DNA of 64,000 nucleotides, from the NCBI RefSeq assembly GCF_964340395.1, contig NC_135555.1, positions 21,302,447 to 21,366,446 on the forward strand, given 5' to 3'. Source of the DNA: Glandiceps talaboti. Taxonomy: Eukaryota > Hemichordata > Enteropneusta > Spengelidae. Made by a program: the position numbers and the translations under genes. Below, in pieces: positions 1,294 through 61,469 of the stretch; positions within the stretch are counted from its first letter, which is position 1; the number at the start of each line of letters is the position of its first letter. The notes below the pieces were generated by a model. It was not told the origin of the DNA. It worked only from the letters and a program-made list of their open reading frames with translations, and did no database searches.

Positions 1294-1376
1294 TCACGTG
1301 ATATTTTCCTTACAGCAGACAGCTTCAGCATACACGTAATGTCCATTACCACCATTCACAGCTTTACATTTGTTCT
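1294..1376 (-). CDS. Exon 9: end of V-domain M3 and stop
   Basis: 83 bases, acceptor TTATTTCAG. It encodes ENKCKAVNGGNGHYVYAEAV then CCKENIT and a TGA stop (1296-1294). It supplies M3 cysteine 4 and the last CC pair. The last three residues, NIT, form a sequon at the very C-terminus. Confidence 0.8.
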
Positions 1377-4300
1377 CTGAAATAAAAAGGACATTTCGTA
1401 TCTGAACAATTATAAAAATGCAGACTTTATATCTTTCACAGTGCTATGGATTACCTATAGAAATCATATCATGGAAGAATCACCAGTCAATCCAAAATAT
1501 TTTCTAGATGTCTGTAAAAAAAAAAGAAGAATATCTATTCTCACCTTCAATATAAGCACCATCAGTTACTTTGTACGGAGTATAAACATTACAACCAGTC
1601 ATAGTCCAGCCACGATCACAGGAAACCACTGCCATGGCCCCTGTCTGACCCCCACTTCTTGGACTCTGCTTGACTGTACATTCAAGGTTTGGGGAAGCAC
1701 AGCAAGCAGCATATGCCTGTACACCTGGATGGAGGTAATATTCCAAAATGTTTTGTAGTTGAAGAGAGCAAACTGTGATTATCGATCAATCAGTCAGTCA
1801 CTCAATCAACCAAAGGTAATATATGAAGCATGTCATCTCCAAAACCATATATAGTTATGTTCAATGGGCCAGAAAGGGTCAAACCACACAGAAGGCCAGT
1901 CTTAATAAATGTGTCTTCAGTTTGTTCGTGAATGTGTTCAGGTTTGATGCTTGCCTACAATATGTCCAATGGTGAAGAATTCAAGTTTAGAAGAGCTACA
2001 CATATACACATACATAGTAGCTATAAATTGTATGTATTTTCCATCAAGTTTGTCCTTTAAATTTCTATTCACTTATTACTGGCATAGGACTTATTGTACT
2101 TGTTATAACGACTTTACTTGTACTTGTTATATTAAAGGACTTTGTCATAGGACTACTTGTACTTGTTATAAGGACTTTGTTATAGGACTTGTACTTGTTA
2201 TAAGGACTTTGTCATAGGACTACTTGTACTTGTTATAAGGACTTTGTCATAGGACTTGTACTTGTTATAAGGACTTTGTCATTGGACTTGTACTTGTTAT
2301 AAGGACTTTGTCATAGGACTACTTGTACTTGTTATAAGGACTTTGTCATAGGACTTGTACTTGTTATAAGGACTTTGTCATAGGACTTGTACTTGTTATA
2401 AGGACTTTGTCATAGGACTACTTGTACTTGTTATAAGGACTTTGTCATTGGACTTGTACTTGTTATAAGGACTTTGTCATAGGACTACTTGTACTTGTTA
2501 TAAGGACTTTGTCATTGGACTTGTACTTGTTATAAGGACTTTGTCATAGGACTACTTGTACTTGTTATAAGGACTTTGTCATAGGACTTGTACTTGTTAT
2601 AAGGACTTTGTCATAGGACTTGTACTTGTTATAAGGACTTTGTCATAGGACTACTTGTACTTGTTATAAGGACTTTGTCATTGGACTTGTACTTGTTATA
2701 AGGACTTTGTCATAGGACTTGTACTTGTTATAAGGACTTTGTCATTGGACTTGCTGTACTTGTTATAAGGACTTTGTCATTGGACTTGCTGTACTTGTTA
2801 TAAGGACTTTGTTATAGGACTTGTACTTGTTATAAGGACTTTGTCATAGGACTACTTGTACTTGTTATAAGGACTTTGTCATAGGACTACTTGTACTTGT
2901 TATAAGGACTTTGTCATAGGACTTGTACTTGTTATAAGGACTTTGTCATAGGACTACTTGTACTTGTTATAAGGACTTTGTCATAGGACTTGCTGTACTT
3001 GTTATAAGGACTTTGTCATTGGACTTGTACTTGTTATAAGGACTTTGTCATTGGACTTGTACTTGTTATAAGGACTTTGTCATTGGACTTGTACTTGCTA
3101 TAAGGACTTTGTCATTGGACTTGTACTTGTTATAAGGACTTTGTTATAGGACTTGTACTTGTTATAAGGACTTTGTTATAGGACTTGTACTTGTTATAAG
3201 GACTTTGTCATTGGACTTGTACTTGTTATAAGGACTTTGTTATAGGACTTGTACTTGTTATAAGGACTTTGTCATTGGACTTGTACTTGTTATAAGGACT
3301 TTGTTATAGGACTTGTACTTGTTATAAGGACTTTGTTATAGGACTTGTACTTGTTATAAGGACTTTGTCATTGGACTTGTACTTGTTATAAGGACTTTGT
3401 CATTGGACTTGTACTTGTTATAAGGACTTTGTCATTGGACTTGTACTTGTTATAAGGACTTTGTCATTGGACTTGTACTTGCTATAAGGACTTTGTCATT
3501 GGACTTGTACTTGTTATAAGGACTTTGTCATAGGACTTGTACTTGTTATAAGGACTTTGTCATTGGACTTGTACTTGTTATAAGGACTTTGTCATTGGAC
3601 TTGTACTTGTTATAAGGACTTTGTCATTGGACTTGTACTTGTTATAAGGACTTTGTCATAGGACTTGTACTTGTTATAAGGACTTTGTCATTGGACTTGT
3701 ACTTGTTATAAGGACTTTGTCATTGGACTTGTACTTGTTATAAGGACTTTGTCATAGGACTTGTACTTGTTATAAGGACTTTGTCATTGGACTTGTACTT
3801 GTTATAAGGACTTTGTCATTGGACTTGTACTTGTTATAAGGACTTTGTCATTGGACTTGTACTTGTTATAAGGACTTTGTCATAGGACTTGTACTTGTTA
3901 TAAGGACTTTGTCATTGGACTTGTACTTGTTATAAGGACTTTGTCATAGGACTTGTACTTGTTATGAGGACTTTGTCATTGGACCTGTACTTGTTATAAG
4001 GACTTTGTCATTGGACTTGTACTTGTTATAAGGACTTTGTCATTGGACTTGTACTTGTTATAAGGACTTTGTTATAGGACTTGTACTTGTTATAAGGACT
4101 TTGTCATTGGACTTGTACTTGTTATAAGGACTTTGTCATTGGACTTGTACTTGTTATAAGGACTTTGTCATAGGACTTGTACTTGTTATAAGGACTTTGT
4201 CATAGGACTACTTGTACTTGTTATAGGGATTATGTACTAATTGTACTTGTATTGGGGACTTTGTCATATAGGACTTGTACTTGTTATAAGGACTTTGTCA

Positions 4301-4742
4301 TTAGACTTGTACTTGTTATAAACACTTAGGACTGTGATAGCTAGGACTTAGACTTGTTATATTAAAGGACTTTGTCATAGGACTTGTTGTACTTGTTATA
4401 AGGACTTTGTCCTTGGACTTGCTGTACTTGTGGACTTTGTCCTTGGACTTGTTGAACAGGCTCGTTTACCAACGAGTTCTTTTTTTTAATCTCAATGGAA
4501 ATGCACTCTTTAAAGGAAACTCTAACAATTAACACTTTCTGATTTCATTTAACAAGCCAGCCTTGATTATGCAGCGTTCTAGAACGAAGTTAGACTGACA
4601 CGCTTTGTGTGAAATGTCATATTCTTCACATGTTTTGAGTTTGTTATTCATTTTTAGTTTCGTGAAGGAAAATCTCCTCAACTTTCTTTTCCCTAGTTAC
4701 TTGTAGTCTCACAGAGGCTCTACGCATTCAATTGACTGTTTC

Positions 4743-4777
<35 letters not shown>

Positions 4778-7700
4778 GGTTATCATTTCCAACATAGAGA
4801 ACACATTTTAAAAATATCAAATAAAAAAGTCAAATAAAGAATTAAAAAGCCCGGGGACGTGAGCAAGTCTAGAAAGAAGCCTCTATTGTCAAATAATCAA
4901 ATAACAACTTCAAATGCAAAATAAACAAGTTTGGTTTCGCCGAATATCCCTTGATTATTACGATACACAGTCCTGTTCATGTATTCAAAGTCTAGTGGAT
5001 AACTAGTCTAAGTATACATACCTTTGCCGCCATTTCCATTTACTGCTTGACATTGTTGGGATATTGCGGTCGGCTTAGCACCATTCAATTCCCCCAAAGT
5101 GGTAAGAGCCATGCAACCTGTAAGTGCACACAATTAAACTAACATACATGTATATTTGTTCAGTGACTGAAACATGGCCATAACTGTCATGGTTATACCT
5201 GCTAGCCCTCAGATATGAACATGTTGGTATGAGGGCTAGCAGGTATTCACCATAGATCTTGGAGGGGGACTCCAAGATCTATAGTATGAACAACTGACGA
5301 ACAGTGTAGTGAGCAGGCTACACATGACCATATAGCACACATCAGGAGATACAATACTAGTATATACAAATAAACACACTGGGTACAAGATACTGTACTG
5401 TTACAGGAGAAATGTAGATGCCTTGGTGTTTCACTCACGAGACATGATGTTTTCTATACACACTCAGACAACTTCAAATGCAAAATAAAACAATTATGGA
5501 TGTGCCGCGCACAGTGGGGATGTAGACAAGTTACCATGTTGGTTATCAGTTGGAAAGTAAACAATGAAGTAAACAATCGTCTATTTCGAAACTTTTCAGC
5601 AGAAATCTGTTTCTACTACACTGTAAACAAATAGTATTAGTTATCACTTTTCAAACTGATGAGGTACAGCATCCCGCTGTGTGTTTTGTCTCTGTTGTTA
5701 TTAGTCATGAGTTGAATTATGTCTATCTTTGTGTTAAAAATACCATGTCTCATGAGTGAAACACCAAGGCAACTTCATTTCTCCTGTAAACAGCTGGCTT
5801 GAAGTGAATTGCATCCAGTGTATAAGTAAAAGAATATAATTTTATATGTGATAAGGAGAAGATTGTCCAGCACCTTCAAAACCCAGTTCTAGTCAACAAT
5901 TGATAAAACGACAATCATCTCTAATGAATGGTGCAAATGGTAATATTTCTGCTTCAATGCTGAAGTTACCATAACAGCAAGTTAAATGCACTTTATACTT
6001 TTGCAAAGGGCAGGGGTGTCGCAACTTTTAACTAGCCTAATGAAGCTATAAATCTCAACATTTGCAAAGTAGTGATTTAGCTAAGTTAAGTTAGCTTTTA
6101 GCTACTAGTGCGCATTATAGTAGTCTTGTGGCAAATGATGTTATGCAACATATTCTTATATTGTGGTTACCCTTTGCTTACCATAGTCATGTATCATCAA
6201 GGTAATACATGTACATGATCAAGTTAATGACATACCTGTTAAGTATGCATCCATTCCAGCGATTTTATCCATACAAGCCTTGTTAGATTCAGCACCACTG
6301 GATGTTCCTGATAGTGTTTCTGCATGGACATAGGTACAGTTCATCTGTGGCCAATTACAACATCTTGCAATAGCTTGAACACCTGACGAGAAAAGTCAAA
6401 TAGGTTCTAGCTGATTTACAAACCTTAACAAATCTATGGTGTGTGTGTGTGTATGTGTGTGTGTGTGTGTGTGTGTTTGCTTGCTTGAATGTTTTGATTG
6501 TTCCTCGGTTCCCTCTAATGCATAATACTCACTACAGAGACGTACCTCCCATTTAATTAGAAAATTAAAAATAACCCCTGGACAATGCACTGTTGATGTG
6601 CTGCTGAGATGAATAATGCAAGCAATATGGCAATATCATCAGGTATGCTTCAACAAATTTCTCATTACTCAAACTTGTGATTGCATGGAAAACAGGCAGC
6701 AAAGCATCTCCCACAAGCTAAGCATAAGGAAATTACAAAAAGCATTGTTATCTCAAAACTACTGAGCATATCTGCATATACTTTTTATACAGACCATAAT
6801 TCTACATTGAGCATTACATGGAAACATTTTATTATTTGTTGCTTGGTTACTATGGTAACCAAATTTATGAAATTCCCTCATTTAGCTAAGGTATAAGCAA
6901 TTTTCAAGAAAACAGAATGTATATGTTACTCCAAGTGGCCAATCGAAGTGCATAATCAGAAAAGAATGTAATTTTTGCCATGGTAATGAAAATGCAAAAA
7001 ATTATGAACATTCGGTTTTTGGTCGAACTACATTATCTATTAGTTACACAACACTTCAACATATTTCTAGATATCTAATGGTGTCTGATCAATGGCACTA
7101 TGAAAATCAATTTCATGGTTGCCATGGTAATCAAAGTGAGTGAGAATGGATAATCCAGACATTTTAGAAAAACAGTGTCAAATTACTCATACGTTCCATA
7201 TATACTCAGGTTTCTCTTTAGATATAGACGTCAGATGAAAATCTGTCATCAAAAGTGGCCAATGCATGCATTTATCAGAAACAAATTTTGTCATTGCCAC
7301 GGTGATGAAAAATGGCAAATATATGAAAATAAATCTGAACTTACCACAGCCTTGACCCGGTGCAGATACGTCACAGTTTTCCCATCGTGAATTGTCATCA
7401 GTAGTGTAACACCAAGTTCTATCATGATCTCTGCCTGGATTACGGCAGTAGTTGTGGTTACCAACACCATCTCCAGCATACACAACAGGTGTATAGTTGT
7501 GTTCATGTGGTGATTGTGAATCCCATCGTTGACAAGTTTTACCAGTAACAGTTCGGTGCACTCTACCTCTATAGTCGTATTGATCATCATCATTATAGCA
7601 TTCCATGTAATCTGTCAAATACATCGAATGTGAGTGTTATGCCATTTATGATTATTTGTACAGACACATAGTCAAAACATTTCAGTCTATTTTAATTTGG

Positions 7701-8409
7701 GGATAATGATTTCCGATTCTAATATTACCAATCAGGGCTAGTGAATCTATCAGGAGGTTGGATACTCCGAATGTCTGCAGGGTATATACTTGGCTCATAC
7801 GAATCGTCAATTATTTAAGATTTTAAACATATGCATATGCATTACTGAGAGCAAAACTCACATCACTATTAGAACATGGACATTTTCAAAGTGAAACGTA
7901 TTGATTGTGACTGTAAATTGAAATGGTTTAATTAATAACGAGTCTTTTTAATACTTTACTTCTATATAACAATGGTATTGAAAGATATTGTTTTTAACAA
8001 ATTACTACAACGTGTCTGTGATATGCAAGAAATGGTTTGATGTTGGTCATTAGATCCTGAAGGTCAAGGTCAAATGTCAAAGAAAGCTTACACCTGATGA
8101 TATAGGAGTAGACACTTGAGTGATGTCGATTCCCTACTGTATTAAAGTTTTTAAGTTATGCAATAGATCATGATTGTTCACTACAAATATGGCAGCCATA
8201 GAGTGAAAAGTGATATCAGCACCACAACTATTAGCAAGCATGTCTATATTTCTTTTTTTCGGTATTACCTTTACACATGATTTAAAAGAAATTGGATATA
8301 CGTAAATGCTACAAACTGTCTGCAATGTGCAAGTAATTGCTTAATTTTGATGGATAGTTGTTCCTGATTTCAACAACTAAATTAGTGTGTGCTGTTTTTC
8401 GTTATGAAC

Positions 8410-8502
<93 letters not shown>

Positions 8503-11500
8503 CGAAAAGATTCAGTAATTCGATAGACAGTAAGAGTGGCGAATTATTCAAATTACACTGATCTTCGAATACAAAGTGTTAGAAAGGAAAATAACAGCAT
8601 GAACTTACCACAGCCACGACTCGGTGCAGTTATCTCACAGTTTTCCCATCGTGTATTGGCATTAGTAGTGTAACACCAAGTTCTATCATGATCTCTGCCT
8701 GGATTACGGCAGTAGTTGTGGTTACCAATACCATCTGCAGCATATGCTGCTGGTGTGTATTCGTGTTCATGTGGTGATTGTGAATCCCATCGTTGACAAG
8801 TTTTACCTGTCACAGTTCGGTGCACTCTACCTCTATAGTCGTATTGATCATCATCATTGTAGCATTCCATGTAATCTGTCAAATACATCGAATGTGAGTG
8901 TTATGCCATTTATGATTATTTGTACAGACACATAGTCAAAACATATCAGTCTATTTTAATCTGAGGATAATGATTTCCGATAGTATTTTTCTAATGTCAC
9001 CAATCAATCAGGGCTACACTAGTGAATCTATCACGAGGTTGGATACTCCGAATGTCAGCAGATATATACTCAGCTCAAGATTTAATTAGAATCATCATAG
9101 GAATCATCAGTTATTTAGGATTTTAAATTTATGTATGGAAGGCACTTTACTGAGAAGAAAAATCACATCAATATTAGAACGTGGACATTAATTTTCAAAG
9201 TGAAACTTATTGATTGTAACTATATTGAAATAGTTTACAACATAAACTATAAGCCTGAAACAAAACGTCCTTTGGATAGACAAAAATCTCATTAACATCG
9301 CTACATTTTATCGTCTGGCTAGACAAAAATCTTACCAACATCGTTTCGTCAATCGTCTGGCGTGACAAACATCTTTACCAATATTGTGACACTTTCTTTG
9401 CGTGAGCTAAATCATCTTAGGAGATAATCGCCGAATTTATACGTCCCTTGTAAACCTATAAGGTTGGCGCATTCTTTGATATTTTTGAGACAGTCAAATG
9501 ACTAAAATGTATTAATTGTAGTTCAGTTCTTGTCGTGCCAGACGATAACATGTGAAATATTAATTAGATTTTTGTCGAGCCAGACGAGAAGATTTACAAT
9601 ATCAAAGAGATGTCAGAGAGATATTTTGTCTAGCCAGACAAAAAACTGTAGCAATGTTAGTGAGATTTGTGTCAAGCCAGACGACGTTTTGTTTCAGGGT
9701 TTATGATTTTCGTTGTTAATAATAGCAAGTCTTTGTATAGGAGACGGTCCACTTTAAATACTTTACTTCTATATAGCAATGGTTTTAAAAGAAAATAGTT
9801 TTAAACAAATTAAATAAATACTACAACGTGTATGTGATATGCAAGAAATGGTTTGATTATATGCATTAGATCCTGAAGGTCAAGGTCAAATGTCAAAGAA
9901 AGCTTACACCTGATGATATAGGAGTAGACACTTGAGTGATGTCGACTCCCTACTGTATTAAAGTTTTTAAGTTATGCAGTAAATCACGATTGTTCACTAC
10001 AAATATGGCAGCCATTGAGTGAAAAGTGATATCAGCACCACAACTATATTAGCAAACATGTCTATATTTCTTTTGTTCGGTATTACCTTTACACATGATA
10101 TAAAAGAAATTGGATATACGTAAATGCTACAAAATGTCTGCAATGTGCAAGTAATTGCTTAATTTTGATGGATAGTTGTTAGTGATTTCAACAACTAAAT
10201 TAGTGTGTGCTGTTTTTCGTTATGAACATGAGAGAGAGAGAGAGAGAGAGAGATTCTATCGTGTGTGACTAAATCCTCAATTATCCAAGCTCGAAAAGAT
10301 TCAGTAACTCGATCGATAGACAGTAAAGAGTGTAGAATTATTCAAATTACACCGATCTACGAATATCAGAACACACTATATCATGCAAAAAAACTTGGAA
10401 AGGTGTCAGAAAGGGAAACAAACAGTACGAACTCACCACAGCCTTGCCTTGGTACAGATATCTCACAGTTTTCCCATCGTGTATTGGCATTAGTAGTGTA
10501 ACACCAAGTTCTATCATGATCTCCGCCTGGATTACGGCAGTAGTTGTGGTTACCAATACCATCTCCAGCATACGCTGCTGGTGTATATTCGTGTTCATGA
10601 GGTGATTGTGAATCCCATCGTTGACAAGTTTTACCAGTAACAGTTCGGTGCACTGTACCTCTATAGTCGTATTGATCATCATCATTGTAGCATTCCACGT
10701 AATCTGTCAAATACATCGAATGTGAATGTTATGCCATTTATTATCATATGTACAGACACTTACTTTATGTGTTGGGGTCATTTTGAAAAATAAAACACCA
10801 CTTGAAGTGGGGGGGGGGTCATTTTGTTTGGAGAACACCACTTGAAGAGAGGGGGCAACAAGATAAGTGTATTTGTCACCTTGGTGCCGTGAAAATGACT
10901 CCTAGACAACTATAATTTGTCAAAATGTTCTATTGCAGAAGAGGGATACCACTACCTTACCCTCCCCATCCATATATTGCATATATGAATACGCTTTGTG
11001 TACTGTTTCTAAAAAAATAAAAAAGTCAACAATTTACCATTAAACTATAACATCGAAAAATGCAAAACCACAGCCAATTGGCTGAACTTAAACTTGGTCT
11101 TGAGATACAAAGTTACTTTTGGAATTCCGATGATGTCAAGAGAGATGAAATCAGCTGTTCTAACTGCCACATGCATCAACAGTAGCATTGTACATGAATG
11201 TACTAGTATTTAATGGTCTAAAAGTATTTACTTGAGATATAAAACTAGCCGAAAATCCATCAACAACACCCCCCCCACCACCACCACCACACACACACAC
11301 ACACTCCTCTGCTGGTAAATTTGTCATGCATCAGTCCATAATTTCGAACATTTTCCCTGTCGACTGGGGTAGAACAAGACAAATAGTAGATTGAATGAAC
11401 TTTCATCGCATCACATGTACACCCTCGCTATGGATGTATACGCTTATGGGGTTTCGACACATCTTCTCCCCTCCTTGCCGAAATACAGAAGCGTATTACA

Positions 11501-12812
11501 TCCAGAGCTACTGTTACGATCCAGAAATACCATATTCGGAATTTTGGCATATTTTACTTAAATTAACGTTAAATTCACATTTATACTAATTACTCACAAA
11601 CAGGAGCTAAGAACAGCATGATCAAATAATATGGTGATTTATCTACTAATCCTATACTAATTACATTTATCTCTAGATAACAAATGTCAAGTGTTTTGAT
11701 CAAACGACATAGATTAGTTCTAGTAAACAAGATAACTTGTTGATTATTGAATTCAGATTAATACTCAATTTTCCAATGGCGTGATCAACATTTGTCTTAC
11801 ACGTGAACAATTTACATATGGCATGATCTCGAATCCCAATCTTAAATATTCTGGTGGAAAGTTCACCGTGTCTTCTAAAACAATGAATCTAGGTGAGAGA
11901 TTATTTAATTATAACCCGTTGTGTTTACAAAAGATGACATCACCTTATTTTCAAGGTGACAACTAGAACTTATATGTTAGGGACTTGAGGAAATAAAGTT
12001 CACTCTTAGATTTTGATTGCAACTCAATTGTTGGTGTGCGGTGTCTCTCTCTCTCTCTCTCTCTGCCTGAGTGTAAGAGCATACGTGTATGTGACGATAC
12101 CTGTGTAGCTAATTCCTGACTTAGACAAGCTCGTAGATCTTGGTACCCGAGAAAGACAGTTAGAGTAGAGAATCGTTTACGTTCTGCCGATCTGCCAACT
12201 ACCATACTTAGACATTGAAACATTATATTAAGCCACCTCAGAACGTAACACTACATACACCCCTGTATGAAAAGCCCCTTAGTATCATTTACAAAAGCAG
12301 AAAATAAAAACATCTCGTGCACTGGAGATATTATGTCGTGCGCATGACTTATGGTCTGGAGCGCAGCACATGTCTCGAGCGCACGAGATGTTATCTCGAG
12401 CGCAAACACAAGATATTTCTCAAGTGCCAGACTTATTATCTCGAGCGCACGAGATGTAATGTGTTGAGCGCTCGAGAATATAAGTCGTGCGCTCGAGATA
12501 TATCTCATGCGCTTGAGATAAAAAGCGCACAAGATATGTTCTTGTTATCTCGAGAAACTCTCGAGATGTCGATATGATTTAAAGCAAAAACAAAAGTTAT
12601 GTCCTTATCTCCAGAAACCTTCTCGTTATCTCGAGATACTTTCTCGTTATACAAAAAAAATGTATGAACTGCCATATGAGGCATTCACGTTCATCGCAGG
12701 CCAGTTAATAATTTGCACTACCGTTTTTACCGACTTTCATTGACTTTGTGGTGTATTGTTTTATAGAGTTTTGAACTTCAGGGTTTTTGGATTTTTTTTC
12801 AGATTCATTAAA

Positions 12813-12843
<31 letters not shown>

Positions 12844-15544
12844 TGTATGTATGTACATAACTTTTCGTTTTCGGAAGCAAAAATATCATATGGAGATCTC
12901 GAGATAGATTTTTAAGATAAGGAGAAAATATCTCGGGCACTCGACAATATATGTTGTGCGCTCGAGATATTATCTCGAGCGCGCGACTTATTATCTCAAG
13001 ATATTTTTATTTTTTTGCTTTTGTAAATGGCACTAGCGGACTTTCATATCCCTGCTTAGGAATGGTAAAATGGCCTTGCCATAAACAAGATTTCCTACCT
13101 CTCCCTGTAACACCATTTTGAGCAATACATGTAGCTTTACCATCATCTCCAATTTCTATAAACTCTCCATTACGAGTTCCGTGGGCCTTGCCTGGCATGT
13201 AGCTACTACATCCCGTCATCACTTCCTTATGTTCACACCGTACTCTACTATAGGCATTGTCAGTTCCAGAAGAGAGTTTTGCCCACCGTGTCACACAGGT
13301 TGGAGCAGGCAATTCTAATGTGAAAGAAGACGGTGAAAACTATGTCATAAATTTAGAATACTAAATTAAAGAGCGAGATATAACAGGCTCTCTCCCCGTC
13401 CTGTTTATCAAAAATAAAGATACCCATATAAAGATGCCCAAAATATATTGGCAGAACACCAAAGTGGTAATAGTCATGCTTGGACGCCGTTCAGGGACCG
13501 TCCCGTACACCGTCTGTAAGCAGGACTATAGTACCAAGTGAGAAACTAATCAACAAACTGATACGGGGGAACACTTCTATCCTGATTTAGCCATTTTGAG
13601 CACTCCCCAAAACTGCATCAGTGATATCAAAATAGCCAAATTATGCTGTAAACTGCCGAGTCTAGCTCACTTTCACTTTTACTTGTATGTTGAAATAAAA
13701 CTTTTAAGATCTCGGTTTCTAAATTTACAAGGATATTGAACAAATTAGGCTGAGAAAGTATAAAATGCAGTTAGGAAAGACATTATCTTGGACTGTCGTG
13801 CGAAAATTGTCAATATCAACCTTAGTCCAACCTATAACCAATTCATATTGCTATACAGCTATTACAAATAACAAAAAATGTACTAAAACTATTGTATTGT
13901 CAATTGCTCTGTACAATTACATGCAATACTGTTTCCATGGCTGTTTCTTTACGTAGCTATATCTGGCCTATTCATCGTTAAACGATTGGAATGACGGGAC
14001 GGTTCTATCACTGCAACATAGGAACCTGTTATAATATTGTATTCGAATAAAAGGCTTAAGTGTAACATTTACTTCACTGTTTGGATAAAAATCTAATTAT
14101 CAACATAAAGCACACACAGTCGTAACAATATCTGCCTAACACCTCTAACCTGTACACGTGACATCAACAAAACACTGATAAAATGTGTACAAGGGAAGCA
14201 GCTTGTGTCCCATCCTGTTCAACTAAACAACTCTCGGTTTTATTTCATATTAAATAGACTGTGTGTAACACAATATTCTTTGGGCTTTGTTATCTTCTGT
14301 CACACTGATTTGAAAGTTCCTGTTTTTTTCTAATGTACACATTGCCACTGAAAACTGATCACCACCTAAGTGCATGATGTAAAAACGTACTTGTTAAAGA
14401 ATATATGTATATAAACGATCAAACTGATTCAGCCGCAGTCAACGAAGCTATTCTTGCAATAAGCTGTTCTTGTGCTATTTTTCAGAGAGTGGGCAATGCC
14501 ATTTTTTTCAATTGTAGCGAGAGGGGAACAAAATGAACGAAATGTGGCAGGGGAGTCCTGATTTTGATTTAGTGGGAGGGGAGAACATGATGATTGTCTG
14601 TCTGTAAGGTAACGGTCATTGTGTACGCCAAAATGAATTGTTGATATAGTGGAAAGTACAAACGTTTTCCTGCGTAAATCATGGCATTTACAATATTGGA
14701 TGGGAATTAGGCTGGCGGGCAAGTTGAAACACATTGGGAGGGAGGGAGGGCAGATATCCTACACCACCCGTGGGAGGACACATAAGAACAACTGAACACC
14801 CTCCCTCACAATGTTTTGGGGGTGATTCTTTTAAAAACATAATTTTTGGTCTGAAACAACATATAATGAAAGTACAAATCTGCCCGTTGACAGCACCTGA
14901 TGATTGAGAGTGTAACCATGATTAACAGGTGTTCTTACTTCATTCCATTCATCTAATTGAGTAGAAAAAAGGTTCACCAATAGCTAGCTATCTTTGGTTC
15001 ACATTTCTTTTCACAATTCAAATACTTTCATAAAATGAAATACACGACATTTAATCATACCCATGTTCATGAGCTGCTCAAACTTCATGTCCAGTACTGC
15101 AATGGTTTGCTGTTGCTTAGTTATAACTTCTTCCATAGTGTCAGTTTCGTTGCGAAAATCTTTCAAACTATGATAAACGTTCTCTTTGTGGGCTTCTACG
15201 TTCCCCTGTAAACTAGATATTTCCCGCTCTTGACGCTGATACTGCTCACCTATGAGATTACGCCAATTGTCAAATTCACGTCTTTGGTTATCAATGTTTT
15301 TACCCAAGGTATCTATTCGATCATCAATAAGTTCAAAGTTATCATCCATGTCTTCCAAATCTGTGATAGTTTCCTGAATGGTTTGGCATGTTTCGTCAGC
15401 ATTGGATGGGAGGGTGAACACATAGGCACATACGTCTGACTGATAACAGTAATTCTGATCATCTCCGCACCTGGCGTACTCTGAGGACGGTTGTTGATGG
15501 GAAAACGCAACGACTTGCAAGGTGACAATTATAACAGCCCACAT
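1294..15544 (-). CDS. Secreted kringle protein with a PCSK9-like V domain (9 exons, 668 aa)
   Basis: Nine coding exons join into 2007 bases with no internal stop: 15544-15061, 13314-13099, 10703-10437, 8875-8609, 7611-7345, 6382-6236, 5117-5022, 1724-1545, 1376-1294. Every internal junction is phase 1 and uses GT-AG. Order in the protein: signal peptide (1-17), four-cysteine cluster and coiled coil (about 26-160), V-domain M1 cysteines 1-4 (162-233), three kringles of 89 aa each (234-500), M1 final CC plus M2 and M3 (501-668). The V part matches the C-terminal domain of PCSK9 closely: VQAIARCC, WTMTGC and ASPNLEC correspond to YAIARCC, WTLTGC and APGLEC, and all 18 cysteines align. No subtilisin catalytic domain was seen. 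It is probably an oligomeric extracellular binding protein. The partner is unknown. The domain calls are firm; the transcript is inferred from splice logic. Confidence 0.88.
1545..1724 (-). CDS. Exon 8: end of M2 and start of M3
   Basis: 180 bases, phase 1-1, acceptor CATCCAG, donor GTGAGA. It encodes GVQAYAACCASPNLEC and SCDRGWTMTGCNVYTPYK, the closest stretch to PCSK9 in the gene (compare ASCCHAPGLEC and ACEEGWTLTGCSAL). Confidence 0.88.
2083..4447. repeat. ~32 bp minisatellite, about 70 copies
   Basis: The unit is about 32 bases, containing tacttgttataaggacttt and gtcatAggac or gtcatTggac. Variants carry an extra TAC or CTG and are 35 bases long. It fills intron 8 of the kringle gene. A/T variants occur in runs, which suggests unit-by-unit expansion. 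Degraded copies lie at both ends (2083-2110 and 4220-4447). Confidence 0.95.
4448..5021. other. Rest of intron 8, AT-rich
   Basis: No exon seen. It includes a short (TCAA)n run near 4744-4772 and, near 4936, a fragment tttcgccgaatat matching the end of the GAAAC foldback at 15838-16241. The string acttcaaatgcaaaataaa recurs at about 5470. Confidence 0.5.
5022..5117 (-). CDS. Exon 7: middle of V-domain M2
   Basis: 96 bases, phase 1-1, too short to stand out as an ORF. It encodes GCMALTTLGELNG... and CQAVNGNGGKG, supplying M2 cysteines 3 and 4. The acceptor is CACTTACAG and the donor GTATGT. Confidence 0.8.
5195..5282. repeat. Two adjacent perfect hairpins
   Basis: Arms ATACCTGCTAGCCCTCA (5195-5211) and its exact complement (5230-5246) are followed at once by ATAGATCTTGGAG (5252-5264) and its exact complement (5270-5282). 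They lie in the intron between exons 6 and 7. They could be the remnant of a palindromic element; no function is claimed. Confidence 0.75.
5403..5787. mobile_element. Foldback/MITE-like element with 44 bp inverted ends
   Basis: The arms at 5403-5446 and 5744-5787 are inverted copies with about three mismatches and carry gagtgaaacaccaaggc. The ~300 bp interior has no ORF. No clear target duplication was found, so the exact ends are uncertain. Confidence 0.55.
6236..6382 (-). CDS. Exon 6: end of V-domain M1 and start of M2
   Basis: 147 bases, phase 1-1, acceptor CTCGTCAG, donor GTATGT. It encodes GVQAIARCCNWPQMNCTYV and continues to MDAYLT. The CC is the closing pair of M1, and the next cysteines (MNC, KAC) open M2. 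The sequon NCT overlaps a cysteine exactly as the NCS glycosylation site (Asn533) does in PCSK9. Confidence 0.85.
6437..6476. repeat. (TG)n microsatellite
   Basis: About 20 TG dinucleotides with one interruption, in the intron between exons 5 and 6 of the kringle gene. Confidence 0.95.
7345..7611 (-). CDS. Exon 5: kringle 3
   Basis: 267 bases, phase 1-1. Six cysteines complete the kringle. It differs from kringle 2 at only a few positions, for example HEHNYTPVVYAGDGVG against HEHEYTPAAYAADGIG. The C-terminal side reads RWENCDVSAPGQGC. The donor is GTAAGT. Confidence 0.93.
8411..8500. repeat. (GA)n microsatellite in kringle intron
   Basis: About 45 GA units. The paralogous position at 10231-10253 has only about 11, so the tract changed length after the duplication. 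It is read as poly Glu-Arg in one frame, which is not a gene. Confidence 0.95.
8609..8875 (-). CDS. Exon 4: kringle 2
   Basis: 267 bases, phase 1-1, donor GTAAGT. It is nearly identical to kringles 1 and 3, with the same six cysteines. The lysine-site motif reads NPGRD. The surrounding introns also match those of the neighbouring copies, showing tandem duplication of exon plus intron. Confidence 0.93.
9241..9705. mobile_element. 465 bp inverted-repeat MITE within the second kringle intron copy
   Basis: The ends CATAAACtataaGCCTGAAA and, on the other strand, CATAAACCCTGAAACAAAAC form imperfect inverted repeats of about 60-90 bases. The internal motif GTCTGGCtAGACAAAa recurs. It is absent at the matching site of the other intron copy (about 7925-7940), so it inserted after the duplication or was lost there. 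No coding capacity. Confidence 0.75.
10437..10703 (-). CDS. Exon 3: kringle 1
   Basis: 267 bases, phase 1-1, acceptor ...TTTGACAG, donor GTGAGT. It encodes one full kringle with six cysteines: ECYNDD, GKTCQRW, NYCRNP, TWCYTT, RWENCE and QGCG. Family hallmarks are YRG, CQRWDSQSPH, NYCRNP and WCYTT. The anionic NPDxD motif of lysine-binding kringles reads NPGGD here. Confidence 0.93.
10740..12285. other. Intron 2, part without genes
   Basis: No exon with V-domain or kringle features was found. It holds G and C homopolymer runs (10810, 11270), a short (CA)n at about 11288-11304 and a (TC)n tract at about 12044-12064. Short ORFs here show no recognisable family features. Confidence 0.5.
12286..13029. 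mobile_element. 744 bp foldback element built of CTCGAG/GCGC palindromes
   Basis: The ends CATTTACAAAAGCA (12286) and TGCTTTTGTAAATG (13016-13029) are inverted repeats and extend inward through AAAATAAAAA. The interior repeats variants of TATCTCGAGCGCACGAGAT in both orientations. A (GTAT)n run lies at 12815-12854. It sits about 70 bases from exon 2 of the kringle gene. No ORF of note. Confidence 0.7.
13099..13314 (-). CDS. Exon 2: V-domain M1, cysteines 1-4
   Basis: 216 bases, phase 1-1. The acceptor is TTCACATTAG and the donor GTAGGA. It encodes residues 162-233 with Cys in PTC, RVRC, VMTGCSSY and ATCIAQNG. This is the order seen in PCSK9 M1 (Cys 457, 477, 486, 509), where the next two cysteines are the CC of AIARCC. 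Here that CC comes only after three kringle exons. Confidence 0.85.
13320..15055. other. Intron 1 of the kringle gene
   Basis: No coding or repeat structure was recognised beyond short G-rich runs. Small ORFs at 13765 and 14429 lack any family feature and are best read as chance. Confidence 0.5.
15061..15544 (-). CDS. Exon 1: signal peptide, Cys cluster and coiled coil
   Basis: The start ATG is at 15544-15542, followed by a hydrophobic signal sequence (MWAVIIVTLQVVAFS). Cysteines lie in CGDDQNYC and CAYVFTLPSNADETC. The CxYxFxLP...C pattern resembles the N-terminal superclustering region of angiopoietins. Residues about 55-160 are rich in E, Q, K, D and L in heptad-like spacing, predicting a coiled coil. 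A sequon NET lies near residue 133. The exon ends ...ATGG before donor GTATGA in phase 1. The open frame that continues past the donor is intronic. Confidence 0.85.
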
Positions 15545-22303: not shown

Positions 22304-22729
22304 TTAATTTTGTAACAAATACTGTTTTAACTGAGATTTAAAAGTAGTCCTGGATTGTATTTTTTTCAATTCTTCAGGTACGGAGTTCCAATGTTTTGCA
22401 GCTGCATACTGAAAATTGTGTTGCGTCAAAGTAAGATTTACTTTTGGAATGTAAAAGTTATCTCTCGTTGTATTCCGAGTGTGATACGTATTTGGTGGTG
22501 TGTTGAAATAGTCGTTAACTGTTTGCGGGAAGTGACCGGCCCTCAAATCAAAAATAAATAAAGAAGTATGAAATTTGCATTGCTGGTGGACACTTTTCCT
22601 AGTTGCTGAAAAAGAGGGGAGGAGGGAGCACCAATATTTGAAAAAGTTATAAAGCGAATAACTTTCTTTTGAAGGTTTAAGATAGGCTTGAGAAATGTAT
22701 TGTATGTATTGCCCCATATCTCTATACAA
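22304..22729 (-). pseudogene. LINE C-terminal segment
   Basis: It continues the element after the frameshift, with FDLRAGHFPQTVNDYF and HWNSVPEELKKIQSRTTFKS. The WN.LP..L....S...FK..L ending is typical of CR1/L2-group ORF2. The first ~45 codons overlap the RT frame and are out of frame. Confidence 0.8.
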
Positions 22730-23967
22730 TATGAGATATGGGGCAAGATCATAGAGTTATACAGCAGAAGAAGAGTAGATTTAGGTACGTAATAGCGAAT
22801 TTTGGAAATTATGCCATTAATTGGAGAAATTGCTTTCCTAACTTTTTCAATGTGTGATGTCCAAAGCATATTTTGATCTAAACACACGCCAAGATAATTG
22901 GTTGACGTTACTTGTGAAATTTGTGAGCGATTGATGCCCAGACTTCCCTCCGTTTTCACCAATCTTTGCGAAGTCTTAATAATCATGAAATTAGTTTTTT
23001 CTACATTGATAGTGAGCCTATTGGCGTCGCACCAGTCACAGACTTTCCTGAAGTCGAAATGGAGTTGATCAAGCTGAATTATATTTGAGGGATTGTTGAT
23101 GAATTGAAACAAGTTTGTGTCGTCGGCAAATAATCGAAATTCAAATGCATCAGTAGCGTTCACAATATCATTGATGTAAATCAGAAAGAGAAGGGGGCCT
23201 AAAATTGAGCCTTGTGGTACTCCACATTGTATTTCGCTATATGGCGAGGTAACATTATTTATACAGACACACTGCTTACGCTGGGAGAGATAACTTTTAA
23301 ACCAAAGTAACGGCAAGCCTCTGACACCATAGTGACTCAGTTTCTGTAGAAGAATACTATGGTCTATTGTGTCAAAGGCTTTCCGCAAATCAATGAATAT
23401 ACCACATGTCAGATATCCATTGTCCAGCTTATTAGCAATACCAGTGATCAGGTCAACCAGGGCAAGCTTAGTACTGTGTTTTTTCCTGAAACCAAACTGA
23501 GTTTTGATGAGGATGTTGTATTTTTCAAAATATATAACAAGTTGATGATTGACAATAGATTCAAACACTTTACTGATTACGGGCAAAATTGTAATGGGGC
23601 GATAATTGCCAACATCGCATGGCGAACCTTTTTTATAAATAGGTATTACCTTGGCAATCTTAAGTAGACTTGGAAAAATACCATTGTTGAGAGAACAGTT
23701 AATTATATGTGTGAGAGGGCATGCAATAATGTGAGCAGCGTGTATAACTAAGAGGGTATTAATTGTGTCCTGACCGGTAGCTTTGCGGGGATCAAGCTTG
23801 AATATTTCTCCAAGGACGTCTTCTTCAGACACGGGGTGAAAGAAAAAGGAGTTGAGGTAGTTCCCATCCAGGTATTGTCTAAAGTCTTTGTTGCTTGTAA
23901 TCTTTTGAGCAAGATTGGGCCCAATACCAGTGAAATAATTATTGAATTCTTGAGCAATATTAAGCAT
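22543..23967 (-). pseudogene. LINE reverse transcriptase segment
   Basis: 474 codons. Residues 1-20 have EFNNYFTGIGPNLA. The RT core follows: KVIPIYKKG (about 106-114), NYRPITILP (121-129), GFRKKHST (159-166), FIDLRKAFDT (191-200), GVPQGSILGP (249-258) and the catalytic FADD (280-283). The RT core is intact in this frame. The frame is lost near its end (about 22570). Confidence 0.92.
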
Positions 23968-24365
23968 GTGTTTCCAGGGTTGTTTGTAGTTAATTTATCG
24001 GGAGAACATTTGGTATGTGTTTTGTTCAACATCTCTTTAATAATAAGCCAAGTTTTGTTGGTGTTGCCAGATGCATTTGAAATTTTATTGGTGTAGTAGT
24101 TTTTCTTAGCCAACCTAAGGAGCTTCGTCAATGTATTCCTGTACCTAGTATACTTATTTTTAATTTGGTTATTCCTTGGGTGATTTTTCATTTTCGAGAA
24201 AAGTTTATGTTTTGTATGTATGGATGTAAATAAGCCCTTTGTGATCCAGGGTCTTTTAATTGACGTTTGTGTTCTTGTAAATGTTTTTATTCGAAGATGT
24301 CTTCTGATAACAGTATGAAATAAATCATTAAAAATATTGTATGCTTCAGACGGATCTTCGCACAT
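23748..24365 (-). pseudogene. LINE segment linking endonuclease and reverse transcriptase
   Basis: It includes RPWITKGL and a basic stretch (KKNYYTNKIS), typical of the region between endonuclease and RT in CR1/Jockey-group elements. The useful frame ends near 23970, where the RT frame takes over. The tail beyond is out of frame. Confidence 0.7.
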
Positions 24366-24400
24366 GTGGACTGGTTGCCAGGATACATTGCTTAGGTCGG

Positions 24401-25393
24401 CTAAGAAGGCCTCTTTGTTGTAATTCCTGAAATCGTAGGTGTGTGTTTTGGTACTGTTTTCAAAAACGTGATGCAGACTTTTAATAATGCCGAAAATTGG
24501 ATAGTGGTCTGAAATGTCTGTTTCAATTGTACCGGACTCAATAAAGTGGTCAGTAATATTTGTGAGGTGTTAGTAACTCTGGTAGGGGTGTTAATTAATT
24601 GTGTCATATTGTATGTATTCAGGAGAGTATTGTAATGAGTAATGGGTGGGCTATCTAAAGATGTGTCAATATTCATATCGCCAAGGAGAATACAATCACG
24701 CCCGTTCACTGACACCTGACCAAGGCATGCTTCTAAACTGTCAATGAATTCATTAAAAGGTGTGTTGGGTCTTCTGTAGATAACGCCTATAACAATCTTT
24801 TTGTTGTTGATCATAGTTTCCCCAAAGATGGATTCGCAGTGATTAATTTTACATGTGTTAATGCGAGAGAAGGACAACGAGTTGTGAAAATACAGAGCGA
24901 CTCCACCACCTTGTGAGGCTTCACGATTACAAGTAACGAAAGTATAGGAAGGCAAATCATAAAGACAGCAATTTGAATCGGGATGTAACCATGTTTCCGT
25001 TAGAGCTATAAAAAGAAAATTTTGATCTAACATGCTTAGAAAGTTAACAAAGCTATCAAAGTTTTTTGTAAGGGATCTGACATTGCAATGTAGGAAAGAA
25101 CATGAACTGTTTAAAAGATTTCTATCAGAATTGAACTGGTTGACTGTGCAAGACTTACAGCTGTATTTGACTATGACTTCTTCGTTCATCATGAAATGAC
25201 TGACATACTTAGAGAATAAGTGATCGAAAAATGTGTTTTTAATGTGCATTAAGTTAGTTTTGTTTGTTTGATATGCTTGTGTGTTTTGTATTCTTGAATT
25301 TTTCATTTTTAGGAGCCTGTAAATGGGACTTGCCGGCCTTCCGTGAAATAAATAAATAAACTGTATGTCAACGAGTTGAGTAATTGGTAACAA
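24401..25393 (-). pseudogene. LINE endonuclease segment (APE type)
   Basis: The open frame carries the conserved endonuclease blocks: LHCNVRSL, an acidic ETWL block, GVALYFHNSLSF, GVIYRRPN and LGDMNID. Near 24575 the meaningful frame shifts: ITDHFIES and TDISDHYPIF, typical of the endonuclease end, read in the neighbouring frame. The first ~90 residues are not recognisable, so the start is uncertain. Confidence 0.85.
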
Positions 25394-25662
25394 AATACAA
25401 CACCTTATTATTCCAAGACAATAGCCCCCGTCACCACGTCCTGGTTTTCACATAATTTTATACATTACACTTTCCTTCAAATGGGGGTCGACACATACAT
25501 TCATAATTCATCAACAATACCGGTGCTTATCCGTCATTGTACGCATTTAGCGAGGAACGCTAGTCTATACCTTCATTACACAGTGTTCACCCCTGTGCAC
25601 GTTACATAAGTTTGTATTCCTGTAAAATAAAAGAATGTGGAGAAATCAACTCCGGACTTTTG

Positions 25663-47867: not shown

Positions 47868-50433
<2,566 letters not shown>

Positions 50434-60513: not shown

Positions 60514-60750
60514 CAGTCAGTCACATCTTTCCAAGTAACATTGGTTTAACTGATAGTGGAAACCAAGGTTTCAGCTAAGATAATTTGGGTGTTGACCCAA
60601 AAATCAATTTGATTGAATTTATTGTACCATAATATGTATATAGTTTTTACAGATTACATTTATCCACAGGTGATTCACTGCATTTCAGGGTGCGTGATAT
60701 CATGATTACGTCATCAATTTTTAAAAAAATGTTCTAGTTGCAGCTTTAAT

Positions 60751-61150
60751 GAATCAGCAATATACCGGTATAGACCATTAATACAATCAGCAATATACCG
60801 GTATAGACCATTAATACAATCAGCAATATACCGGTATAGACCATTAATACAATCAGCAATATACCGGTATAGACCATTAATACAATCAGCAATATACCGG
60901 TATAGACCATTAATACAATCAGCAATATACCGGTATAGACCATTAATACAATCAGCAATATACCGGTATAGACCATTAATACAATCAGCAATATACCGGT
61001 ATAGACCATTAATACAATCAGCAATATACCGGTATAGACCATTAATACAATCAGCAATATACCGGTATAGACCATTAATACAATCAGCAATATACCGGTA
61101 TAGACCATTAATACAATCAGCAATATACCGGTATAGACCATTAATACAAT
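60751..61150. repeat. 33 bp tandem array, 12 nearly perfect copies
   Basis: The unit contains aatcagcaatataccggtat and agaccattaatac. Copies look identical. Because 33 is divisible by three, the minus strand stays open as a repeated MVYTGILLIVL peptide; this follows from the repeat and is not evidence of a gene. Each unit has the palindrome ATACCGGTAT. Confidence 0.97.
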
Positions 61151-61469
61151 CTTTGGTGGTATTCCTATGTTTTGTGTGAAAGTATTTGTGATGTTAATAT
61201 TTTAGTATTGCCAACATCAGTTTTATTTTATGGTCAATGCAATATTGAAATAAATCATTTTTAGTACAGAATTTATATGATATATGAAATTTAATAAATA
61301 TCTTTATATCTATGTTTTGTATGGTGGTCCTTCCATTTGGGATACAATTAATTACTGCATTGGTATTTTACATTTCTCCTATCCTCACATATCCATCAAT
61401 TTACTTACAGGTCCTCTTCTGATAAGCAACCTTTCTCAGCCTCTAACACCTGATCTGATCAAATATACT

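Follow-up and report, generated by a model that had tools for sequence, protein, structure and literature searches.

Three kringle exons placed within the first repeat of a PCSK9-type V domain in a predicted acorn worm gene

Can a small disulfide-rich domain still close when three other disulfide-rich modules have been placed inside it? This question is raised by a minus-strand gene (15544 to 1294) within a 64,000-nucleotide stretch of the genome of the acorn worm Glandiceps talaboti (Hemichordata, Spengelidae; contig NC_135555.1, positions 21,302,447 to 21,366,446), referred to below as the window. Its product is best explained as a secreted protein composed of a leader, a long helix, and a protease-less PCSK9-type V domain, in which the first of three repeats (M1 to M3) is interrupted by three kringles. 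We put the probability of this explanation as a whole at roughly 0.78.

Gene structure and domain content

Nine exons could be placed with AG/GT borders, and phase 1 was found at all eight exon junctions.

15061..15544, minus strand: exon 1, hydrophobic, signal-like leader with the start codon and four cysteines, then a long helix (residues 1-161)
13099..13314, minus strand: exon 2, first part of M1 with Cys 168, 188, 197, and 224, ending CIAQNGVTGR; phase 1-1
10437..10703, minus strand: exon 3, kringle 1 (Pfam Kringle), six cysteines; phase 1-1
8609..8875, minus strand: exon 4, kringle 2, six cysteines; phase 1-1
7345..7611, minus strand: exon 5, kringle 3, six cysteines; phase 1-1
6236..6382, minus strand: exon 6, GVQAIARCC (Cys 508 and 509) closing M1, and the opening of M2
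5022..5117, minus strand: exon 7, middle of M2, ending NGNGGK in phase 1 at the codon equivalent to the end of exon 2
1545..1724, minus strand: exon 8, GVQAYAACC closing M2, then most of M3
1294..1376, minus strand: exon 9, remainder of M3 with the stop codon

The joined exons encode a protein of 668 residues that is identical, letter for letter, to an NCBI protein of G. talaboti (P0001), which was itself annotated from this genome and so gives no independent check on the DNA. NCBI calls it "plasminogen-like isoform X1 [Glandiceps talaboti]," the X1 hinting at one or more additional predicted isoforms. An earlier interpretation made without database searches (the sequence-only reading) had described the exon order, the phase-1 junctions, and the cysteines as we found them. 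It had also ended exon 2 after CIAQNG, which needs correction: the donor is at 13099 (GAG/gtagga, as in P0001), four codons and a base further, and leaves CIAQNGVTGR plus one base. A donor at 13114 (CIAQN plus one base) was rejected, with a score of -2.27 against 3.41 for 13099 on a donor matrix. As had been claimed, VQAIARCC stands at the start of exon 6, preceded there by the remainder of a glycine codon.

The domain search agreed with this layout. Pfam Kringle matched three stretches (E = 4.1e-58; 194.1 bits for the whole protein against a curated cutoff of 34.3), and PCSK9_C3 was also matched (E = 1.8e-15). With the kringles included, PCSK9_C1 gave an E value of 9.8e-22, with its best stretch covering profile positions 9 to 70; when the kringle exons were left out, it matched in one piece over positions 9 to 83 of 83 (E = 4.2e-27). 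Neither Peptidase_S8 nor Inhibitor_I9 was matched up to an E value of 1 by the tool that detects both in the PCSK9 of Amia (P0006), and a trypsin-like protease and a PAN domain were likewise absent from the Pfam matches up to that value. The 40 cysteines comprise 6 in each kringle, 6 each in M1 (4 + 2), M2, and M3, and 4 in the leader; the sixth kringle cysteine is displaced and lies outside the best Pfam profile match. Three six-cysteine repeats with the predicted PCSK9 fold described below mark the host as a V domain of the PCSK9 type.

Two points count against nesting: the introns around the kringle cassette are long and repetitive, and the join to the kringles is one made by gene models. 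The kringle exons might then belong to a separate gene within intron 2, with exon 2 truly joined to exon 6. Yet they lie on the same strand, their phase-1 borders fit exons 2 and 6 at both ends, and the NCBI model, itself an annotation of the same genome, makes the same join; we give such an artifact hardly any credence. No exon that would close M1 ahead of the kringles was found when the three minus-strand frames of introns 2 to 5 were checked by eye, in keeping with the sequence-only reading. These frames hold eight CC dipeptides (4, 1, 1, and 2), none in a GVxAxAxCC-like context.

Intron 7, between two V-domain exons, is filled for much of its length (about 2100 to 4470) by a long minisatellite with a unit near AAGTCCTATGACAAAGTCCTTATAACAAGTAC, as judged by eye.

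Closure and predicted fold of M1

In a PDB search, the V domain without its kringles hit human PCSK9 with an E value of 1.4e-23. This alignment bears out the claim that M1 of PCSK9 is uninterrupted at this point: NAFGGE/GVYAIARCC in the human protein aligns with NGVTGR/GVQAIARCC, the slash marking the kringle site. The V-domain repeats of PCSK9 pair their cysteines 1-6, 2-5, and 3-4, and M1 would close in the same way through Cys 168-509, 188-508, and 197-224. Three internal disulfides per repeat are given in a published account of the PCSK9 V domain (PMC3820617).

P0001 and its kringle-less paralog P0002 are identical at 45 of 64 and 11 of 15 positions in the two pieces of M1, compared with 46 of 80 in M2 and 49 of 67 in M3. 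Derived sites in M1 number 6 versus 5 for the first piece and 1 versus 1 for the second. By these comparisons, M1 is not relaxed despite its interruption.

AlphaFold2 brings the two pieces of M1 together and, with M2 and M3, predicts the PCSK9 C-terminal fold. Along with the cysteine counts and the unrelaxed state of M1, this supports the proposal that M1 still folds around a kringle loop. If M1 had instead been broken by the insertion, its halves would be unpaired, and the protein would consist of a helix, half a repeat, three kringles, and M2 plus M3. The model itself leaves some room for this, as its V-domain part was guided by kringle-less homologs and its kringle part is of low confidence, and both points weigh against a closed M1. 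However, both pieces retain all of their cysteines and are conserved as well as in the kringle-less paralog, and a broken M1 would leave the cysteines of exons 2 and 6 without their usual partners. We therefore regard a broken M1 as very improbable.

The geometry of a closed M1 depends on the kringle disulfides, which pair 1-6, 2-4, and 3-5. If this pairing holds here, the stretch from the fourth (224) to the fifth (508) cysteine of M1 would be bridged at 238-322, 327-411, and 416-500, leaving a path of 14 + 5 + 5 + 8 = 32 residues along the disulfides, compared with 17 in human PCSK9. Each kringle would in effect be short-circuited by its own Cys1-Cys6 bond, and we propose that the host fold tolerates the 267-residue insert because this path is only about 32 residues long. 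A 2026 survey reports domain insertions in 20% of multidomain proteins and describes inserted domains as typically 50 to 200 residues long, with termini about 10 to 15 Å apart (PMC13114784). This profile would suit a single kringle closed by its Cys1-Cys6 bond, and the whole array only via the disulfide shortcuts. The nested reading of M1 and the kringles is supported as far as it is testable here.

Origin and amplification of the kringle exons

The protein searches yielded six distinct proteins, five of which have a V domain, and only P0001 of these five has kringles. The insert is absent from the other four and from human PCSK9.

P0002, G. talaboti: kringle-less V-domain paralog, with 63% identity over its best local alignment
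P0003, Saccoglossus: V domain without kringles
P0005, Ptychodera: V domain without kringles
P0006, Amia PCSK9: V domain without kringles, with subtilisin and prodomain matches

The searches returned 5 of 1,149, 2 of 275, and 4 of 4,971 candidates; they relied on shared exact words and on candidate lengths of 0.55 to 1.75 times that of the query, so that relatives may be missed, and the Amia PCSK9 was returned by one search and missed by another. Since these relatives and human PCSK9 lack the insert, the kringles look gained, and on present sampling they would have been gained in the lineage of this gene.

According to a published account, class 1-1 modules generally enter preexisting phase-1 introns, and internal insertions of this class have been published for the fibronectin type II (FN2) module in MMP2 and for a kringle in thrombin (PMC3927616). 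The kringle exons follow that rule for exon shuffling, being symmetrical 1-1 modules in a phase-1 host intron. The suggestion that this intron existed before the kringles arrived is strengthened by M2, which has an intron of the same phase at the same codon: exon 7 ends one base past NGNGGK, and the rest of a glycine codon opens exon 8, followed by VQAYAACC. M3 does not lend the same support, as it has no intron at the equivalent codon; its intron lies earlier, before ENKC.

The three kringle exons are 92 to 94% identical in DNA sequence, and the similarity extends into the introns.

7325..10762, minus strand: tandemly duplicated kringle cassettes, each an exon with flanking intron DNA (from self-blastn and flank identities)

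In the self-blastn comparison, blocks comprising an exon and its flank align at about 85% identity over 1,039 and 654 bp. The nearest 59 upstream bases are similar across all three kringles (54, 54, and 59 of 59). Farther out on the 5′ side, the flank of kringle 2 resembles that of kringle 3 (238/295) and not that of kringle 1 (60/146, about background). In the 3′ flank, positions 201 to 700, kringle 2 instead matches kringle 1 (443/479) and not kringle 3 (153/325). Unequal exchange or successive duplication would be expected to leave such a mosaic in the flanks. NG86 estimates of synonymous (dS) and nonsynonymous (dN) divergence among the kringles are 0.11 to 0.16 and 0.04 to 0.08, respectively, with dN/dS of 0.32 to 0.72, all on small counts.

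CT microsatellites of very different lengths were seen by eye at similar places behind kringle exons 4 (8400-8500) and 3 (about 10230-10250).

The symmetry of these exons also permits another product. As all internal exons are of phase 1-1, transcripts with 0, 1, 2, or 3 kringles would keep the frame, and skipping from exon 2 to exon 6 would give a seamless V domain. The kringle exons could then be optional cassettes, so that the gene would mainly make the plain V domain and the nested protein would be a minor form, a view partly compatible with the nested explanation. The label "isoform X1" hints at other isoforms, and the P0001 cluster has two member sequences. On the other hand, the skipped 401-residue form used as a query found no full-length identical protein (the identical match is P0001, and the best local alignment covers 58%), and the kringle exons retain open frames, splice sites, six cysteines each, and a dN/dS below 1. 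We consider it unlikely that the nested form is the minor one.

The nested explanation would proceed as follows. A class 1-1 kringle exon would have entered a phase-1 intron located between Cys4 and Cys5, in the loop of M1, and then multiplied in tandem, and the resulting kringles would hang as pendants from M1.

Leader exon and possible function

The exon 1 leader is 54% identical over 147 residues to that of a fibroleukin-like protein of G. talaboti (P0004), which has the same leader but carries a fibrinogen C domain, its sole Pfam match at an E value of 0.01. This common leader suggests a second shuffling event, as judged from the alignment. AlphaFold2 places helices at residues 49-131 and 137-159 of exon 1, with ten-residue blocks at 43 to 73 on the predicted local distance difference test. 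The leader perhaps mediates oligomerization; a heptad test lent this no support, its observed value being reached in 80 of 500 and 39 of 300 shuffles.

Lysine-binding kringles carry an anionic pair, Asp54/Asp56 in plasminogen numbering. Here, the corresponding sequence is NPGGD or NPGRD, compared with NPDND in plasminogen kringle 1, so that the first Asp is replaced by Gly in all three kringles and the second is kept. Because the first Asp is missing, lysine binding in the plasminogen manner by these kringles is doubtful. Function is the least certain part of our explanation: the secreted protein may serve in binding or as a scaffold, possibly as an oligomer, and its kringles would supply ligand-binding arms to a V-domain head, much as the FN2 repeats of MMP-2 and MMP-9 do. 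A bolder extension, which we hold only tentatively and think rather doubtful, is that the M1 loop is a docking site for modules and that the kringle array varies in copy number and is optional in splicing, so that one gene would yield V-domain heads bearing zero to three or more binding arms, and the V-domain family would acquire new binding functions as modules are loaded onto the loop.

Elsewhere in the window

Outside the gene, three other regions drew attention.

22543-25447, minus strand: retroelement-like frames, with a reverse transcriptase match (RVT_1, E = 2.2e-32) and an upstream endonuclease-type match (Exo_endo_phos, E = 4.6e-9) in different open reading frames and a third frame overlapping both
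48670-49281, plus strand: open reading frame with a weak Methyltransf_11 match (E = 1.3e-4), possibly one exon of a different gene
60706-61193: tandem repeat with several open frames, encoding on the plus strand the protein repeat IYRYRPLIQSA

Discussion

Much module shuffling yields beads on a string, whereas in this protein a small disulfide-rich domain is interrupted by three modules that are themselves rich in disulfides. The likely route of entry is still readable in M2, the sister repeat, where a phase-1 intron falls at the matching codon, and the kringle copies are young enough for the homology of their introns to remain visible. The locus also marks a site at which the PCSK9 V domain may accommodate a large insert, and it adds to the evidence for a protease-free PCSK9-type V domain in acorn worms.

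The sequence-only reading had known of no description of kringles set inside a V domain of the PCSK9 type, and we found none, either of this arrangement or of this gene, among the matches listed in open-licence literature. The protein already has an NCBI entry; within the literature searched it goes unremarked, and the name "plasminogen-like" is misleading. Given the published internal insertions of FN2 modules and of a kringle, both the mechanism and this kind of architecture are already known.

Compared with PCSK9, this protein has no subtilisin or prodomain match, has a helical leader instead, and carries three kringles inside M1. The acorn worm proteins P0002, P0003, and P0005 likewise have a V domain without a protease but lack kringles and have shorter leaders. 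Tandem kringles are shared with plasminogen, HGF, and apolipoprotein(a), and kringle 3 has plasminogen as its best PDB match (E = 2.1e-85, summed over five kringles). In those proteins, however, the kringles are beads between domains and do not lie inside another domain, and unlike plasminogen, the present protein has no trypsin match. In placing three small modules within a host domain, it resembles MMP-2 and MMP-9, whose metalloproteinase domain holds three FN2 motifs according to one report (PMC10418771), and the FN2 module of MMP2 is, in the account cited above, a class 1-1 internal insertion like the kringles here (PMC3927616). The gelatinases differ in that the inserted module is FN2 instead of a kringle and the host is a protease domain.
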